Assembly (NCBI RefSeq): GCF_000373965.1
Contig: NZ_KB892865.1
Location: 139,338-203,337, forward strand
Origin: Uliginosibacterium gangwonense DSM 18521
GTDB lineage: Bacteria > Pseudomonadota > Gammaproteobacteria > Burkholderiales > Rhodocyclaceae
Length of the DNA: 64,000 nucleotides
Direction: 5' to 3'
Shown here: positions 4,660-12,345 of the stretch, one piece after another
Layout of the letters: every line of letters begins with the position of its first letter
How positions within the stretch are numbered: the stretch's first letter is position 1
Program-made: the position numbers and the translations under genes
Notes under the pieces: model-generated
Database searches by the model: none
Told to the model about the DNA's origin: nothing
Seen by the model: only the letters and a program-made list of their open reading frames with translations

Positions 4660-5745
4660 CTACTCCAGGAGGGCCACTGCCTTAACCTGCGCCCATACAT
4701 CCTGCCCCACGGTCAGGACGAGCTGATCAGCAGAACGCCGGGTGATGCGTGCCAATAGCGTTGTACCACCTGCCTGCAAGGAGACCATGCATTGTGCCGG
4801 GTCTTCTGTCTCCCCGATCTCCATCACGCGACAAGCAAAACGATTTTGAATGCTGGAGGCATGATCACTGTTCAAGGCGATGGAAACGTCGCGGGCGAGA
4901 ATGCGCACCCTCAATCGTTTGCCCTGCGTGAAGTTGCGTCGAGAAACAAAAATGTCCCCGCCTCCAAACCGTAGGCGGGTGAGGTGCCAGCGCTCGTCAT
5001 GCCCGACCACCTCTGCCGATATGACCACGCTGGCCTCATGATCACGCGCCAAGGGCAGATCAAGGCGTGCCAGGGTCTCATCCAGAGGGCCACTGGCCAA
5101 AACTCTGCCATGTTCCAGCAGTACCAGTTGATCGGCCAGTCGCGCCGCCTCTTCGATCTGGTGCGTGACATACAACATGGGAATCTCCAGCTCGTCATGC
5201 AGGCGTTCCAGGTAGGGCAGTATCTCCTGCTTGCGCGCATGGTCCAGCGCCGAAAGCGGCTCATCCATCAGCAGCAGGCGCGGCCTGGTCAGCAAGGCCC
5301 GGGCAATCGCCACACGCTGCCGCTCCCCACCAGACAGCCCCTCAGGCTTGCGGGTGAGCAGGTGGTTGATCCCTAGTTGCCGTGATGCGGCCTGAACCTC
5401 ATCCTCATTGATCCGCCCGCCTGCGCGGCGCATCCCGAAAGTCAGATTGCCATGCACATTCAGGTGCGGAAACAGGCTCGCTTCCTGAAAGACGTAGCCG
5501 ATGGCGCGTTTCCAGGTCGGCAGGAAAACCCCTTGTGCTGTGTTCTGCCACACCTCCCCCTGTACCCGCAGGTATGCGTTTGTCGCCCGCTCCAGGCCCG
5601 CCACACAACGCAGCAGCGTTGTCTTGCCTGAGCCGGAATGCCCAAACAATACGCTGACCCCTTTGCCGGGCAAGCTCAGTTCGACATCCAGATCGAAACC
5701 TGCATACTGATGCGCCAGGCGCAGGACGATTGGCTCATCACCCAT
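4660..5745 (-). CDS. modC: Molybdate ABC transporter ATP-binding protein ModC
   Basis: A 361-aa ATPase that powers molybdate import through ModB. The N-terminal ABC domain shows Walker A GHSGSGKTT near residue 35, the signature LSGGERQRVAIARAL, Walker B LLLMDEPLSALD and the switch histidine in VTHQ. The C-terminal ~110 residues form the regulatory Mop-like domain that binds oxyanion in this family. The ATG at 5745 is used; a GTG lies directly before it. It is the last gene of modE-modA-modB-modC and starts 9 nt after modB ends. Confidence 0.95.
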   Translation of the reverse strand: MGDEPIVLRLAHQYAGFDLDVELSLPGKGVSVLFGHSGSGKTTLLRCVAGLERATNAYLRVQGEVWQNTAQGVFLPTWKRAIGYVFQEASLFPHLNVHGNLTFGMRRAGGRINEDEVQAASRQLGINHLLTRKPEGLSGGERQRVAIARALLTRPRLLLMDEPLSALDHARKQEILPYLERLHDELEIPMLYVTHQIEEAARLADQLVLLEHGRVLASGPLDETLARLDLPLARDHEASVVISAEVVGHDERWHLTRLRFGGGDIFVSRRNFTQGKRLRVRILARDVSIALNSDHASSIQNRFACRVMEIGETEDPAQCMVSLQAGGTTLLARITRRSADQLVLTVGQDVWAQVKAVALLE

Positions 5746-5754
5746 CACAGTCTC

Positions 5755-6435
5755 TTACTTTCTGAACGAACCCTGGGGGTTCAAGGTGTACAGCGCCAAC
5801 AGAACGAAGAACGCAAACGCCACCATTCCCCCTGCCAGCCAATGGGCCTGAGTGTATTCCAGCGCCTCGACGTGATCGAATATCTGCACTGACACCACCC
5901 GCGTTCTATCCGGGATATTACCGCCGATCATCAACACCACGCCAAACTCACCCACTGTATGCGCAAACCCCAGGATCGCCCCGGTCAAAAAACCAGGGCG
6001 CGCGAGCGGCACCACAACCGACCAGAACCGATCCCAGGGAGAAGCCCGTAGCGTAGCGGCCACTTCCAGTGGCCGACGACCAATTGCCTCAATGGCGTTC
6101 TGCACCGGTTGCACCACGAAGGGCAGCGAATAGAAGGTAGAGGCCACTACCAGCCCGGTAAAGGTAAAGGGCAGCATTCCCAGCCCCAGCGCCTGAGTCA
6201 GCGCCCCGACGGGACCATGCGGCCCCATCAGCAGCAGCAGATAAAAACCCAGCACCGTAGGCGGCAACACCAATGGCATGGAAACCAGCGCACTGACCAC
6301 TCCACGCAAGCGTGAGCGGGTATATGCCAACCACCATGCGATGGGGGTGCCCACAATCAGCAACAACACCGTCACCGTGGTAGCAAGGCGCACGGTCAGC
6401 CAAAGGGCTGACCAATCCTGCGGATCAAGCATCAT
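5755..6435 (-). CDS. modB: Molybdate ABC transporter permease ModB
   Basis: A 226-aa inner-membrane permease with about five hydrophobic segments. The EAA-type cytoplasmic loop that docks ModC is visible as [15 protein letters not shown] followed by [23 protein letters not shown], the standard ModB/CysT motif with invariant glycine. Length is normal for ModB (~225 aa). Two adjacent ATG codons (6435 and 6432) could start it. It lies between modA (8-nt gap) and modC. Confidence 0.95.
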
Positions 6436-6443
6436 TACCCTAC

Positions 6444-7229
<786 letters not shown>

Positions 7230-8042
7230 TCAATCAAATGCCGAAAGCATCACGCTGGAAGCTTTGAAAATCGCACAGGCCCGGTAGCCTTCGCGCAAGC
7301 CAAGCTCCTTGAGCGCATCGCGGGTGATAATCGCGCTGACGGTGCGCCCGGCAGGCAGGCTCAGCACCACATCCACCGCCACCGGCCCTTCGTGGATGCG
7401 CACCACCTCACCCCACAACTGGTTGCGGGCAGACAGACGCATGCCCTCATCAGTCGACAGGATCACGGCAGAAGAATTGACCCAGGCGTGCAATTCACGC
7501 CCGATATTCAGGCGCATCTGTTCGGCCCCTTCACGCGAGACATGGGCCACGATTTCATTCTGGCCGTCAAAACGAATGCCCACTTCATAGGTCACATCGC
7601 CCGCGCGCAGACTCGTCACCGGGCCCACAAACTGGTTGCGCGCGCTTGTCGTCACCCCCACGCTACGCATCAGGCGGCGCAGGGATTGCGGATCATCGTC
7701 TCCCGCCTGGCCCAGACTTGCCGCTACCCGGTCCAGCGCCAACTGATATTCAGCCTCCATTGCGCGATACACCTTGACCACCTGGCGCCCATAATCAGTC
7801 AGCACGGTACCGCCACCGTGGCGGCCCCCCACTGCGCGCTCCACAAGCGCCTGATCAGCAAGGTTGTTCATCGCATCCACGGCATCCCACGCGGCCTTGT
7901 AAGAAAGGGGCACCTCCTTGGCCGCCTGGGAGATCGAACCACAGCGCTCAATCGCCTCCAGCAGACGAATGCGGGTATCGCCCAAAAAGCTGCCCGCCTC
8001 CAGATCCACGCCAAAACGCCCAATCATCCTGTTTGATTTCAT
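7230..8042 (-). CDS. modE: Molybdate-responsive transcriptional regulator ModE
   Basis: A 270-aa regulator that binds molybdate and then DNA, classically repressing mod transport genes. The N-terminal LysR-like winged helix is at about residues 20-115 (RIRLLEAIERCGSISQAAK, SYKAAWDAVDAMN, GGRHGGGTVLTDYG). Two C-terminal Mop/TOBE domains start near TSARNQFVGPV and SARNQLWGEV and bind the oxyanion. The open frame runs 55 codons further upstream, but that part is not ModE-like; the ATG at 8042 gives normal length. It is the first gene of the leftward mod operon and has a candidate ModE box 27 bp upstream, so it is probably autoregulated. Confidence 0.93.
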   Translation of the reverse strand: MKSNRMIGRFGVDLEAGSFLGDTRIRLLEAIERCGSISQAAKEVPLSYKAAWDAVDAMNNLADQALVERAVGGRHGGGTVLTDYGRQVVKVYRAMEAEYQLALDRVAASLGQAGDDDPQSLRRLMRSVGVTTSARNQFVGPVTSLRAGDVTYEVGIRFDGQNEIVAHVSREGAEQMRLNIGRELHAWVNSSAVILSTDEGMRLSARNQLWGEVVRIHEGPVAVDVVLSLPAGRTVSAIITRDALKELGLREGYRACAIFKASSVMLSAFD

Positions 8043-8068
8043 ACCGGCTTTCTTGTTATACAGACCCG

Positions 8069-8092
8069 CGTTATCTATATTCTTACACAGCG
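8069..8092. promoter_or_regulatory. modE box: Candidate ModE box between modE and mop
   Basis: CGTTATCTA, six bases, then TACACAGCG. Compared with the ModE consensus CGnTATATA-N6-TATATAnCG, the left arm matches 8 of 9 and the right arm 7 of 9 with exact spacing. It sits in the divergent gap between modE and mop and could repress both units when molybdate is plentiful. The consensus is from memory of enterobacterial ModE sites. Confidence 0.55.
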
Positions 8093-8224
8093 CTTTTATA
8101 AGCGGAATGTCTTTTTCACTGTTTTTTCGATTTGGCGCTGTGGTTGAAACATCTTGTACTGTTCTATTACATTGGTCATACCGCCGTTTGATCCCTTCTT
8201 CAATCACCAGGAAAGCGACCCCAA

Positions 8225-8653
8225 ATGAAAATCAGCGCACGCAACACCTTCGAAGGCAAGATCAGTGCCTTGAATGTCGGCCCGGTCAGTGCCGAAGTCG
8301 AAATCATCACCCAAGGCGGCGACAAACTCATCGCCACCATCACCCAGGGCAGCGCACAGTCGCTGGGGCTGGCCGTTGGCAAGGAAGTCATCGCACTGAT
8401 CAAGGCCTCGAATGTGATGGTCATGACCGATGGCAGCGGCGTCAAACTCTCCGCGCGTAACTGCCTGAGCGGCAAGGTCAAAAAGCTGGTCCCCGGCCCG
8501 GTCAGTGCAGAGGTGATCATTGCACTTCCTGGCGGCGCCGAGATTTTTGCCAGTGTCACCCGTGAGGCCACCGACGAACTTGGCCTCAAGGAAGGTTCCG
8601 TCGCCACTGCCGTGATCAAGGCATCCTCAGTGATCATCGGCATCAAGGCCTAA
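8225..8653 (+). CDS. mop: Tandem Mop-domain molybdate-binding protein (molbindin)
   Basis: A 142-aa cytoplasmic protein made of two tandem ~68-residue Mop domains, each beginning with an (I/L)SARN(T/C)(F/L) motif (residues 3-9 and 75-81) and containing GPVSAEV. This matches ModG-type di-domain molbindins, which assemble into rings that bind several molybdate ions and buffer intracellular molybdenum. It is divergent from modE and shares its control region. A stable hairpin follows the stop. A ribosome site (CAGGAAAG) lies about 10 nt before the ATG. Confidence 0.92.
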   Translation: MKISARNTFEGKISALNVGPVSAEVEIITQGGDKLIATITQGSAQSLGLAVGKEVIALIKASNVMVMTDGSGVKLSARNCLSGKVKKLVPGPVSAEVIIALPGGAEIFASVTREATDELGLKEGSVATAVIKASSVIIGIKA

Positions 8654-8799: not shown

Positions 8800-9210
8800 T
8801 CAACGTGGCATCTGATCTGCAAAAGAGAAAAACGCCTGATGCTGCTGGCAATCATCACTACATGAAATCCGCCGGTGGATCAGCCAGCGCCCATCAATCA
8901 AACGCCAAGCCACCAGATGCTCCCAATAACTGGGGGCAAGGTAGTAGGCTTCGTCATCATCGGAACGCAGATCAGTCAGCACAAAGTAATGCTCGCAATA
9001 GCAGGGGCAATCCTCGTACTCATAGCCCAGAACACGCTCAGAGACGATTTCGTAATCCCGGAAATGCTCAAAGCTGATCGGCTCAACCACCTGATGCGCC
9101 CAATCCTTGGGCAGCAAAGCCCGCCAGGCGGGCTTCTTGTTCCAGTGGCGGCACGGGGTTCGCTCAACCCTGCCGCCCGTTTGTCCACATGCATCCCACA
9201 TGTTCGCCAC
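8800..9210 (-). CDS. Unknown 136-aa protein behind a ModE box
   Basis: I do not recognise a family. The protein is acidic and rich in Trp, Tyr and His, with no signal peptide or membrane span. It contains a Cys cluster (EDCPCYCEHYF, about residues 67-77), a second pair near CSDDC and an acidic turn RSDDDEAYYL. Reading starts at GTG 9210 (GGGGAG upstream) or ATG 9201 (GAGGTGG upstream). It lies 81 bp downstream of modD on the same strand, and the gap carries a well-matched ModE operator about 26 bp upstream of the start. The position and operator suggest a role in molybdenum or FeMo-co metabolism (inference). Confidence 0.7.
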   Translation of the reverse strand: MANMWDACGQTGGRVERTPCRHWNKKPAWRALLPKDWAHQVVEPISFEHFRDYEIVSERVLGYEYEDCPCYCEHYFVLTDLRSDDDEAYYLAPSYWEHLVAWRLIDGRWLIHRRISCSDDCQQHQAFFSFADQMPR

Positions 9211-9235
9211 CTCGCTCCCCAGTCAATCACGGCTT

Positions 9236-9261
9236 TCGATATGTTAGTCAGTATATAGCGA
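9236..9261. promoter_or_regulatory. modE box: Strong ModE-box candidate upstream of the unknown 136-aa gene
   Basis: Read on the minus strand: TCGCTATATA, six bases CTGACT, then AACATATCGA. The left arm fits the consensus TCGnTATATA completely and the right arm matches 8 of 10 of TATATAnCGA, with the expected 6-bp spacer. It is an AT-rich patch inside otherwise GC-rich sequence, and overlaps where the promoter of the 136-aa gene should be. Confidence 0.7.
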
Positions 9262-9291
9262 ATAACATGCCAATCGCGCTGGCAGGCGTTC

Positions 9292-10140
9292 TCAGGCAGG
9301 CACCAAGTGCACCTTCACGTCGCGGGGTGGCGCAAAATAAGGGGCGGAACTCACCAGGAAATCAGCCCCCGCCCGCGCATAGGCCAGGGCATTGCTGCGC
9401 GTCACCCCGCCGGCAGGCGCCAGCAAAGGGGCCAATCCTTTGGCCCGCAGGGCTTGGTGGCACGCTTGCAGGGCTTCGGGGCTGAAGCGTTCCAGTTGCA
9501 ATACATCCGCCCCACATTCAGCCAACCACAAGGCCTCTGCCAGATTTTCGACTTCCGCCACCAGCTTCTTTTCAGGATTCTGCCGATGCAGTTGCGCGAG
9601 CAGTGCGGGCATGTCGGCTTTGTCGACAAACGCACGATGTTCGGGGAACAGCAGCAAGGTTTCCGACAATCCCAGCCGATGTGCAATCGCCCCACCTGCA
9701 TGCACAGCCTTGATCGCCAAGGTCCGTGTGCCGGGCAGATTCTTGCGCGTGCACGCCAGGGGCAGATCGAAACCTGCCTCGTGCAAGTCATGCAGAATAT
9801 CGGCCGCACAGGAAGCCATGCCAGACAGATACTCCATCAAAGTCTGCACAGTCTTCCAGGCACGGTGTAACCCGGCGGCATCGCCTTGTGCCCGCAAGAC
9901 CTCAGCTTGCGCCGAGACGCGCTCACCCGAAGCAAGGCAAGTCAAGACGTGGCCTCCGCACAACTCAATCAGGCGCGCAGCCTCCTCGCTGCCACACAGA
10001 CACATCGCCTGCCTTGCCGTCATCGTCAGCCGTGCAGGTCGACTGCCGATCCCCATGCCAGTGGTGGTCAAATCTCCATGTGGTACATCTTCAGCCAGTA
10101 TGGCCAGCAAAGCTGAATCACTCAAACAGCATAGTTTCAA
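9292..10140 (-). CDS. modD: ModD, nicotinate-nucleotide pyrophosphorylase-like molybdenum protein
   Basis: A 282-aa member of the quinolinate phosphoribosyltransferase fold found in mod/nif loci as ModD. Family marks are EDVPHGDLTT near the N-terminus, ACTRKNLPGTRTLAIKAV (the QPRTase-like phosphoribosyl region), KKLVAEVENLAEAL and a C-terminal GGV...YARAGADFLVSSAPYFA. Its biochemical role is not established. The frame extends 26 codons upstream inside nifQ, but TTG 10140 is chosen: it is 1 base after the nifQ stop, has GGAG upstream, and gives normal length. Translation is probably coupled to nifQ. Confidence 0.85.
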   Translation of the reverse strand: MKLCCLSDSALLAILAEDVPHGDLTTTGMGIGSRPARLTMTARQAMCLCGSEEAARLIELCGGHVLTCLASGERVSAQAEVLRAQGDAAGLHRAWKTVQTLMEYLSGMASCAADILHDLHEAGFDLPLACTRKNLPGTRTLAIKAVHAGGAIAHRLGLSETLLLFPEHRAFVDKADMPALLAQLHRQNPEKKLVAEVENLAEALWLAECGADVLQLERFSPEALQACHQALRAKGLAPLLAPAGGVTRSNALAYARAGADFLVSSAPYFAPPRDVKVHLVPA

Positions 10141-10141
10141 A

Positions 10142-10678
10142 TCAATGCTCCGGACCAAAACAAATGGCGTAATCGCAACAATCCGCACAGCTTGGCGACT
10201 TGCAGATCGAGATTCCACTGCGTTGGCAGAGCTGGCGATAGAAGAACTTCTTCCACTTCATATCATTCACATTCTGCGCCGCCAGCCGGGGGAAACGCAA
10301 ATTCAGGATCGCCGATAGTTCCCGGCGCGAAGGCAAGCCCATGTCTTGCCAAAGGTGGTTATTGCGCTGCGCGGCGGTTGAGATGGCACAAGCCAACCAG
10401 CGCCCCATGGCATCCTGCGGTTCAGCATATTCCCATAGCAATTCAAAGAGTTCATCGAACTCGTCAAAAGGCTCTGCAGCAAGGCTTTGCATCGGCGCCA
10501 GATCAAAACCCGTACCGCATAGCCCTGCCAAATACGCATAGTCGGCAACATCCACACCACGTAACAGGGGCTGAGCACCAATGCGCTGCCCCTCGGTCAG
10601 CACGCAACTCAGAACCAGTTGCTCCAGGGGCATGGTGGCCGCGCTCAAGCGTAACAACGAAGTATCAGGTGCATTCAT
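10142..10678 (-). CDS. nifQ: NifQ, molybdenum donor for FeMo-co synthesis
   Basis: A 178-aa protein that supplies molybdenum as a Mo-Fe-S species to the NifEN/NifH cofactor machinery. The diagnostic Cys motif Cx4Cx2Cx5C is intact near the C-terminus (CKSPSCADCCDYAIC), preceded by the conserved MGLPSR and KWKKFFYRQLC segments. The ATG at 10678 has an excellent GGAGGTAAG site; an in-frame ATG 15 codons upstream lies across the sigma-54 promoter region and is rejected. First gene of a leftward unit with modD, divergent from nifENX. Confidence 0.95.
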   Translation of the reverse strand: MNAPDTSLLRLSAATMPLEQLVLSCVLTEGQRIGAQPLLRGVDVADYAYLAGLCGTGFDLAPMQSLAAEPFDEFDELFELLWEYAEPQDAMGRWLACAISTAAQRNNHLWQDMGLPSRRELSAILNLRFPRLAAQNVNDMKWKKFFYRQLCQRSGISICKSPSCADCCDYAICFGPEH

Positions 10679-10701
10679 GGGCTTACCTCCACCATCCGCT
10701 A

Positions 10702-10717
10702 TGCAAGGAATGCACCC
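10702..10717 (-). promoter_or_regulatory. Sigma-54 promoter candidate for nifQ-modD
   Basis: On the minus strand the sequence reads GGGTGCATTCCTTGCA: GG at -24, exactly ten bases, then GC at -12 within the full TTGCA element. It lies 24 bp before the nifQ start codon and is well placed for NifA-dependent transcription. Confidence 0.6.
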
Positions 10718-10839
10718 AATCACGCTCGTCTGGAGTCTCTCCCCTCAAAAAGCCTGTAGCAACAGGGGGGAAACACGGGAACATCTGCTTCATTGATAGG
10801 TGGAGCTTTGATGCCAAATAACACAATACGCGGCGCCGT

Positions 10840-10947: not shown

Positions 10948-12345
10948 GTGAAAGCCTCCGACATCGCAGCCTTGCAAAACGAACCCGCCTGCACCCACAA
11001 CAAAGGGGAGAAATCAGGCTGTGCCCGCCCCAAGCCCGGCGCGACCGCAGGGGGCTGCACCTTTGATGGCGCCCAGATTGCCCTGCTGCCCATCGCGGAT
11101 GTGGCCCATATCGTGCACGGCCCCATCGGCTGCTCAGGCAGTTCCTGGGATAATCGCGGCACACGCTCTTCCGGGCCGCAATTGTACCGCATCGGAATGA
11201 CCACGGACCTGACCGAACAGGACGTGATCATGGGCCGGGGCGAAAAACGCCTGTTTCATGCCATCAAGCAAGCCATTGACGAACACACCCCTGCAGCGGT
11301 GTTTGTTTATGCCACATGCGTAACCGCCGTGATTGGCGATGATCTGGAAGCCGTTTGCCAAGCCGCACAGGCTCGCTGGGGGGTGCCGGTGGTGCCCGTC
11401 GACTGTGCCGGGTTCTATGGCACCAAGAATATGGGCAACCGGATTGCAGGCGAAACCATGCTGCGCCACGTGATCGGCACCCGTGAGCCGGAACCGGCAT
11501 GCGCCCTCCCCGGCATCCGGACGCATGACATCAGCCTGATAGGTGAATACAACATCGCAGGCGAATTCTGGCATGTCGCGCCATTGTTCGATGAACTTGG
11601 GCTGCGTGTGCTGGCGAGCCTTTCCGGTGACGCACGCTATCATGAAATCCAGACCATGCACCGTGCCGAAGCCAGCATGGTGGTGTGTGCCAAAGCATTA
11701 TTGAATGTTGCCCGCAAGCTCAAGGAACGCTGGGGCGTCCCATTCTTTGAAGGCAGCTTTTATGGCGTTGCTGATACTTCCCAGGCCCTGCGCGAATTTG
11801 CCCGCCTGCTCAATGACACGGACCTTGCCAACCGCACCGAAGCGCTCATCGCTCGCGAGGAAGCCGCCATCAACGCAGCACTTCAGCCCTGGCGGGAACG
11901 CCTCAAAGGGCGGCGCGTCCTGCTCTATACCGGCGGAGTAAAGTCCTGGTCCATCGTCTCGGCGCTGCAAGACCTGGGCATGGAGGTGGTCGCCACTGGC
12001 ACCAAGAAATCCACCGCAGAAGACAAGGCGCGCATCCGTGACCTGATGGGCGATGACGCTATCATGATCGACGACGGTAGTCCCAAAGCACTGTTGGGCG
12101 CCTACAAGGACCTACGCGCAGACATCCTGATCGCGGGCGGACGCAACCTGTATACCGCGCTCAAGGCCCGCATCCCCTTCCTGGACATCAATCAGGAACG
12201 CGAGTTTGGCTACGCAGGCTATCGCGGCATGCTGGAACTGGCGCGGCAGCTTGCACTGAGCATCGAGAACCCGGTCTGGCAAGCCGTACGCAAACCCGCC
12301 CCGTGGGCGCAGAGCAATCTGATTGGCATTGCGGTGGAGGCTTGA
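10948..12345 (+). CDS. nifE: NifE, FeMo-cofactor scaffold alpha subunit
   Basis: A 465-aa NifD paralogue; with NifN it forms the alpha2beta2 scaffold on which the NifB-cofactor is matured to FeMo-co. The N-terminus ([15 protein letters not shown], then EKSGCA-PKPGAT-GGC) is the standard NifE opening, followed by [21 protein letters not shown] with the P-cluster-type cysteine, and [14 protein letters not shown]. The start is GTG: the MKA opening matches known NifE exactly and no ATG is available; GGGGA lies about 7 nt upstream. It is separated from nifN by one base. The upstream region carries NifA, IHF and sigma-54 elements. Confidence 0.97.

Follow-up and report, generated by a model that had tools for sequence, protein, structure and literature searches.

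A conserved protein of no known family encoded beside modD and nifQ in Uliginosibacterium gangwonense DSM 18521: a candidate NifQ partner behind a putative ModE operator

The window analyzed here is the whole 64,000-nucleotide stretch of contig NZ_KB892865.1 (positions 139,338 to 203,337, forward strand), and all window coordinates count from its first letter. The working label "q" is used for the gene at 8800-9210 on the minus strand; L-numbers denote loci, G-numbers genomes and g-numbers genera. The following features surround q.

4660-7208, minus strand: molybdate transporter ORFs modA (6444-7208), modB (5755-6435, over the TIGR02141 cut-off) and modC (4660-5748), modA and modC being presumed from sequence and context.
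7230-8207, minus strand: modE ORF (HTH_1 and TOBE domains by Pfam), the likely regulator of the ModE box.
8225-8653, plus strand: mop-like protein with two TOBE stretches (PF03459), convergent with q.
8800-9210, minus strand: gene q, encoding a 136-aa protein from a GTG start, with invariant C70, G62, W102 and W109; identified by third-position bias and conservation over 44 alignment rows.
9236-9261, minus strand: putative ModE-type operator, TCGCTATATA-N6-AACATATCGA, 16 of 18 informative positions; from the dyad search and relatives.
9257-9272, minus strand: sigma54-like core TGGCATG-N4-TCGCT (GG-N10-GC), conserved in relatives, its -12 part overlapping the left arm of the ModE box.
9292-10218, minus strand: modD (quinolinate phosphoribosyltransferase-like), directly upstream of q; Pfam QRPTase_N/C, and TIGR01334 over cut-off.
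10142-10723, minus strand: nifQ ORF, upstream of modD (PF04891, E = 1.3e-45).
10948-12345, plus strand: ORF from the ORF list that we take from its sequence to be nifE, the start of a divergent nifEN cluster.

The placement of q directly after nifQ-modD, given in the initial annotation made from the sequence alone, was confirmed by the shared strand and by the PF04891 and QRPTase domains of the two neighbors. The GTG start of q lies at 9210 with GGGGAG immediately 5' of it, and an alternative ATG is found 9 bases inside this start. Over the last 110 codons, q differs from its nearest relative (L033) at 17, 6 and 53 first, second and third codon positions, respectively, and differences from five close relatives are likewise concentrated at third positions; this bias and the conservation of the family rule out an artefactual ORF. 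In the 44-row alignment (A1, start codons picked by rule), C70 (44/44), G62, W102 and W109 are invariant and P34 (43/43), E97 (43/44) and H74 (39/44) nearly so. The sequence EDCPCYCEH had been proposed as a possible metal site, and of this the conserved C70 and H74 remain; the Cys pair is unsupported as a metal site, C72 being kept in 13 of 44 members only. If q binds a metal, C70 with H74 and E97 would be the candidate ligands.

The protein is a member of a conserved family that matches no known family, in agreement with the first reading of the ORF. Pfam and NCBIfam searches with the window protein returned sub-cut-off matches only (best E of 0.3 and 0.16, respectively), PADLOC and PHROGs gave no match at E up to 1, and a plasmid search gave none. 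Individual members of a set of 33 relatives gave isolated weak matches (best E 0.0005, in a table without cut-offs); D-lactate dehydrogenase, GAP1-N2 and HalA each matched 1 or 2 of the 33 members and were judged chance. The NifQ domain (PF04891) was absent from the window protein and from the 33 members at E up to 0.1, and neither contained a TOBE domain, which mop and modE of the window do match; no DNA-binding or signalling domain was found in the same proteins by Pfam and NCBIfam. A PDB sequence search returned pterin-carbinolamine dehydratase (2ebb) at E 0.096 over 28 residues only, a similarity that does not extend over the fold. Two AlphaFold2 models, each from a three-row input, were poor (mean pLDDT 48 and 58) and the best Foldseek match of the q model to PDB had E 0.17, and no fold is claimed. 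No description of the family was found in titles and abstract starts of papers in an open-access library, which is no proof of absence from the literature as a whole.

Protein searches located q in 32 of 200 related genomes, the window genome included, at 33 places, and a profile built from the 33 sequences recovered the same 32 genomes. In wider samples, where the class and order searches scored part of the first-look candidates and may have missed some, q was present in at least 22 of 300 genomes of the order, one of them (G569) doubtful, and among 369 genomes of the class was seen in the window's own only (0/368 others). The distribution looks narrow; the two named relatives are an uncultured Uliginosibacterium and a MAG of the Rhodocyclaceae. 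For the counts that follow, L060 (genome G086) fell below the local tblastn cut-off and was left out of A1 and of the context and promoter counts, G086 being retained for co-occurrence; L119 (G569), a partial match of 44 residues, enters only into the 45 places of the gene-order survey; and L001 and L034 are one contig, counted once.

Among the 200 relatives, family cut-offs were exceeded by nifH in 61 genomes, nifQ in 73, modD in 26 and modB in 173. Gene q was present in 32 of 61 nifH-positive genomes versus 0 of 139 nifH-negative ones (Fisher p = 2e-20, with the caution that the genomes are related and p-values are not independent tests), and all 32 holders carried both nifH and nifQ. Homologues are thus not widespread in genomes without nif; a wide occurrence there is what the initial annotation had named as evidence against its proposal. 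A defining partnership with modD was ruled out, the gene exceeding its cut-off in only 19 of 32 q holders and not in the other 13; the link to nifH and nifQ is tighter. The same division is seen within five genera (g1, g30, g36, g52 and g101), in which nif-positive species have q and nif-negative species lack it, the reverse occurring in no genus; one of the nif-negative genomes, G094 of g30, is only 79% complete. No q was found around modB in four of these five nif-negative genomes, some of the stretches ending at contig edges, and the surroundings read modE-modA-modB-modC in G006, modE-modA-modB-modC-modD in G094, modA and modB-modC in G042, and modB-modC in G058. Twelve further q holders came from the order search, and 6 of the 12 fetched stretches contained no nif gene; one of these six is G685, a genome from a different family whose q lacks nif neighbors up to 10 kb away, and the nifH test, which covered G685, found the predicted nifH over cut-off. 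Because 29 of 61 nifH-positive relatives lack q, it is not generally needed for molybdenum nitrogenase and is an accessory. Since modB is over cut-off in 173 of 200 genomes while q is in 32, the permease alone does not bring q: the gene tracks nitrogen fixation, not molybdate transport as such.

Gene order was surveyed at 45 places, some of them cut by contig ends. A mod-labelled gene lies within 5 kb of q at 38, or at 37 if the "modC" of L046 (36% identity) is discounted as probably another ABC ATPase, and a nif gene lies within 10 kb at 24. At 17 places q and nifQ share a same-strand run. Gene q follows nifQ-modD at 7 places and nifQ alone at 8, a fusion among the latter, and at 2 places (L062, L063) it stands behind nifENX and before fdx-nifQ. 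The fusion (L108, G604:C293) is a single 327-codon frame without a stop that holds NifQ and q with a linker between them; of the 322 residues scanned, Pfam assigned 23-183, ahead of the q part, to NifQ, and none of the q part. This is one instance only, from a draft genome whose completeness is 86%. Gene fusion often signals that two proteins work together.

The position of q between nifX-side genes and fdx-nifQ in L062 and L063, together with the one invariant Cys (C70, 44/44), would suit a thiol or redox helper that supplies sulfur or electrons to NifQ or to the Fe-S cluster side, or protects them, and handles no molybdenum. We consider such a role improbable, as the ModE boxes and the mod-operon positions of q point to molybdenum.

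Other arrangements place q within the uptake genes. It lies inside a mod run as modE-modA-q at 4 places (L039, L047, L049, L054) and as modC-q at 3 (L055, L059, L112), and a ModA-like and/or ModB-like gene follows it in L033, L034, L037, L040 and L044. Gene q might accordingly belong to the transporter side, where its product would hold molybdate or release it at the inner face of the membrane for ModABC or for a second transporter of the ModAB type; its support of nitrogenase would then be only indirect. In Rhodobacter capsulatus the ModAB-like transporter MorAB is encoded by genes that are NifA-dependent and repressed by MopA/MopB in response to Mo (PMC6925177), and a transporter under both controls lends this role some plausibility. 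The near-universal permease set beside the absence of q from all 139 nifH-negative genomes, the NifQ fusion, and L043, where no mod gene accompanies nifQ-q over 5 kb, all speak against it. Because q also occurs within mod runs and next to a second ModA/ModB-like pair, a transporter-serving role is the next best reading after that of a NifQ partner, though rather unlikely.

In order to examine the upstream region, TCGNTATATA-N6-TATATANCGA was assumed as the ModE consensus, as by the earlier reader. When up to 3 mismatches were allowed, the 64-kb window contained a single site, 9236-9261, which has 2, and 100 dinucleotide shuffles of the window yielded zero such dyads. The gene strand reads TCGCTATATA CTGACT AACATATCGA, so that the left arm is complete, the right arm matches at 8 of 10 positions and the spacer is 6, all as initially described; the box is upstream of q as claimed, and its distance to the GTG is 25 bp, not 26. 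A dyad of at least 14/18 precedes q in the window and in its seven closest relatives; none at this threshold precedes q in the next closest, L042. Overall, 15 of 44 q genes have such a dyad upstream, versus 2 of 343 control regions, taken from these same loci upstream of other, mechanically called ORFs, and many distant members have no ModE box directly upstream. The box is therefore conserved in all of the most similar loci, whereas lack of conservation in relatives would have spoken against the initial annotation, and by this close-upstream dyad, found beyond chance, q of the window and its closest relatives is a putative member of the ModE regulon. A weaker ModE-like dyad (13/18) is located at window positions 8068-8093, between mop and modE.

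A second q copy, at L038 (G003:C120, 9673-11293), carries its own ModE-sigma54 element, and the 5 kb around it lack mod genes. A further ModE dyad (15/18, 10193-10218) follows there, before a gene that we take to be formate/nitrite-transporter-like. The narrow distribution (0 of 368 other class genomes, at least 22 of 300 in the order with one doubtful) might be expected of an ordinary lineage-specific hitchhiker in the nif/mod region, next to a ModE box that serves something else. This explanation is very improbable, given that the association persists across many gene orders and that a ModE box accompanies the L038 copy away from mod genes.

The GG-N10-GC spacing of the core that overlaps the operator is that of the sigma54 consensus. 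In the window the core is weak alone, 4% of 200 shuffles reaching its score, and its -12 element reads TCGC, not TTGC. Nine loci (the window, L033 to L038, L002 and L041) have TGGCAY exactly 11 bases before the ModE left arm and share the core TGGCAY-N5-TCGCT, giving GG-N10-GC. Over 15 anchored sites (L053 contributing two), mean identity was 0.90 in TGGCNY and 0.97 in the left arm, versus 0.43 and 0.41 in the flanks. At five loci the composite element precedes a gene run leading to q, either modE-modA-q (L039, L047, L049, L054) or modD-q (L053), runs that from strand and spacing would be operons. In the more distant loci L040, L042, L044, L046, L050 and L051 the core reads [TCG]GGYA...TTGC and overlaps a ModE-like site with a different offset; some are weak. 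A search of 128 genomes with the composite element returned 16 sites in 13 genomes (reversed control pattern, 8 sites). Twelve of the 16 belong to q loci, where 11 precede q and one falls between q and modE (G063); by genome, it was found in 10 of 22 q holders versus 3 of 106 others. It also stands before mod operons without q in the nifH-positive genomes G016 (L120) and G066 (L121), and matches without a mod or nif gene nearby, which may be chance, were obtained at L122 (G144:C3, near 504878) and L128 (G001:C61, near 12507). These four sites rule out a composite promoter found only at q; the element is enriched at q, not exclusive to it.

No NifA site (TGT-N10-ACA) was found within 700 bp upstream of q in the window. 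Such a site lies before the core in L050, L051, L058 and L113, and over 44 loci there were 15 sites in 11 loci versus about 6 expected. The elements before q resemble a sigma54 promoter with a ModE operator lying across its start region: were transcription to begin about 12 bp past the core, the start would fall inside the operator, as expected for repression. The morAB case shows that NifA-dependent activation combined with ModE-type repression exists (PMC6925177). Gene q would share with morAB the logic of a NifA/RpoN-type promoter with a Mo-box, and at several loci it adjoins ModA-like or ModB-like genes; it differs in that morAB encodes a transporter and q a small unrelated protein. The anfA gene of R. 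capsulatus was rejected as a precedent for sigma54 with a Mo-box, being activated by NtrC with RpoD according to the same paper, and morAB fits. In Azoarcus olearius BH72, levels of modE and modA1B1C1 go up during N2 fixation (PMC8467165).

The ModE box before q might also suggest a regulator that senses Mo or partners ModE or the sigma54 activator and tunes mod and nif genes, for example by relieving ModE repression during N2 fixation. In three nif-positive sister species without q (G093, G109 and G014; L123, L124 and L126), neither modE nor a ModE dyad was found in the fetched mod stretches, and modE being missing together with q, the link of q could be with ModE. We regard a regulatory role as unlikely: q contains no detected DNA-binding or signalling domain, it is fused to NifQ and not to a regulator, and G016 and G066, which lack q, still possess both modE and the composite element.

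NifQ bears a Mo-Fe-S cluster and serves as the Mo donor of NifEN/NifH, and more molybdate helps nifQ mutants; the mechanism of NifQ cluster synthesis is described as unknown, and a protein likewise unknown is drawn at the Mo-entry step in this 2024 study (PMC11605450). The path expected in Azotobacter vinelandii leads from transport via MoSto and NifQ to NifEN (PMC6448029). The distribution of q, its neighbors, its promoter elements and the fusion make it fit the partner drawn at the NifQ step. Our preferred reading, to which we assign a probability of about one half, is that q is a diazotroph-specific partner of NifQ, produced during N2 fixation under Mo scarcity, that charges NifQ with Mo. 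Small and probably located in the cytoplasm, it would act together with NifQ as an accessory protein of molybdenum nitrogenase. A sigma54 promoter answering to its activator, and a ModE operator bound by Mo-loaded ModE, would limit its production to times when nitrogen fixation is on and molybdate scarce. Once made, the protein might acquire Mo, either as molybdate or in a first reduced or thiol-bound form, with C70, H74 and E97 as candidate ligands, and pass it by contact to NifQ, from which it would reach NifEN for FeMo-cofactor.

The proposal of the initial annotation, a molybdate-regulated protein for Mo handling or nitrogenase support, gains support from the restriction to nifH- and nifQ-positive genomes, the ModE dyad and the NifQ fusion, with Mo handling and regulation as its conjectural parts. 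In a bolder and distinctly more tentative form, q could be the missing Mo-insertion factor of NifQ, founding a new metallochaperone family among the diazotrophs of one order that carries Mo from the uptake system to the NifQ Fe-S cluster under an AND-gate promoter of overlapping sigma54 core and ModE operator. Mo entry into NifQ is a gap in the account of FeMo-cofactor assembly, and q, its fusion and its apparently Mo-sensing promoter make the step directly testable. If the NifQ-partner reading is true, q would be a candidate part for rebuilding nitrogenase in other hosts under low Mo.

Several known proteins are close to q in context or in presumed function. NifQ (PF04891) belongs to the same pathway by genome context, is fused to q once and is present in 32/32 q holders; q itself is without the NifQ domain by Pfam scan and forms a separate family. 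MoSto, Mop and ModG, which store Mo or bind molybdate, would share with q the intracellular handling of Mo under Mo control, but q has no TOBE domain and no other Pfam family over cut-off. ModD (TIGR01334) is often the neighbor of q and also part of mod loci, but q does not match it in Pfam or NCBIfam and 13 of the 32 holders lack modD over cut-off.

Some loci depart from these arrangements in detail. An ORF that is presumably an Rrf2-like regulator stands between nifQ and q in L057, L111 and L116, and modD next to q is present as fragments only in L035 and L054. What we take to be TonB-receptor-like genes lie behind the ModB-like gene near q in L044 and, with a FecCD-type ABC transporter, near q in L046; these perhaps serve outer-membrane uptake of Mo.
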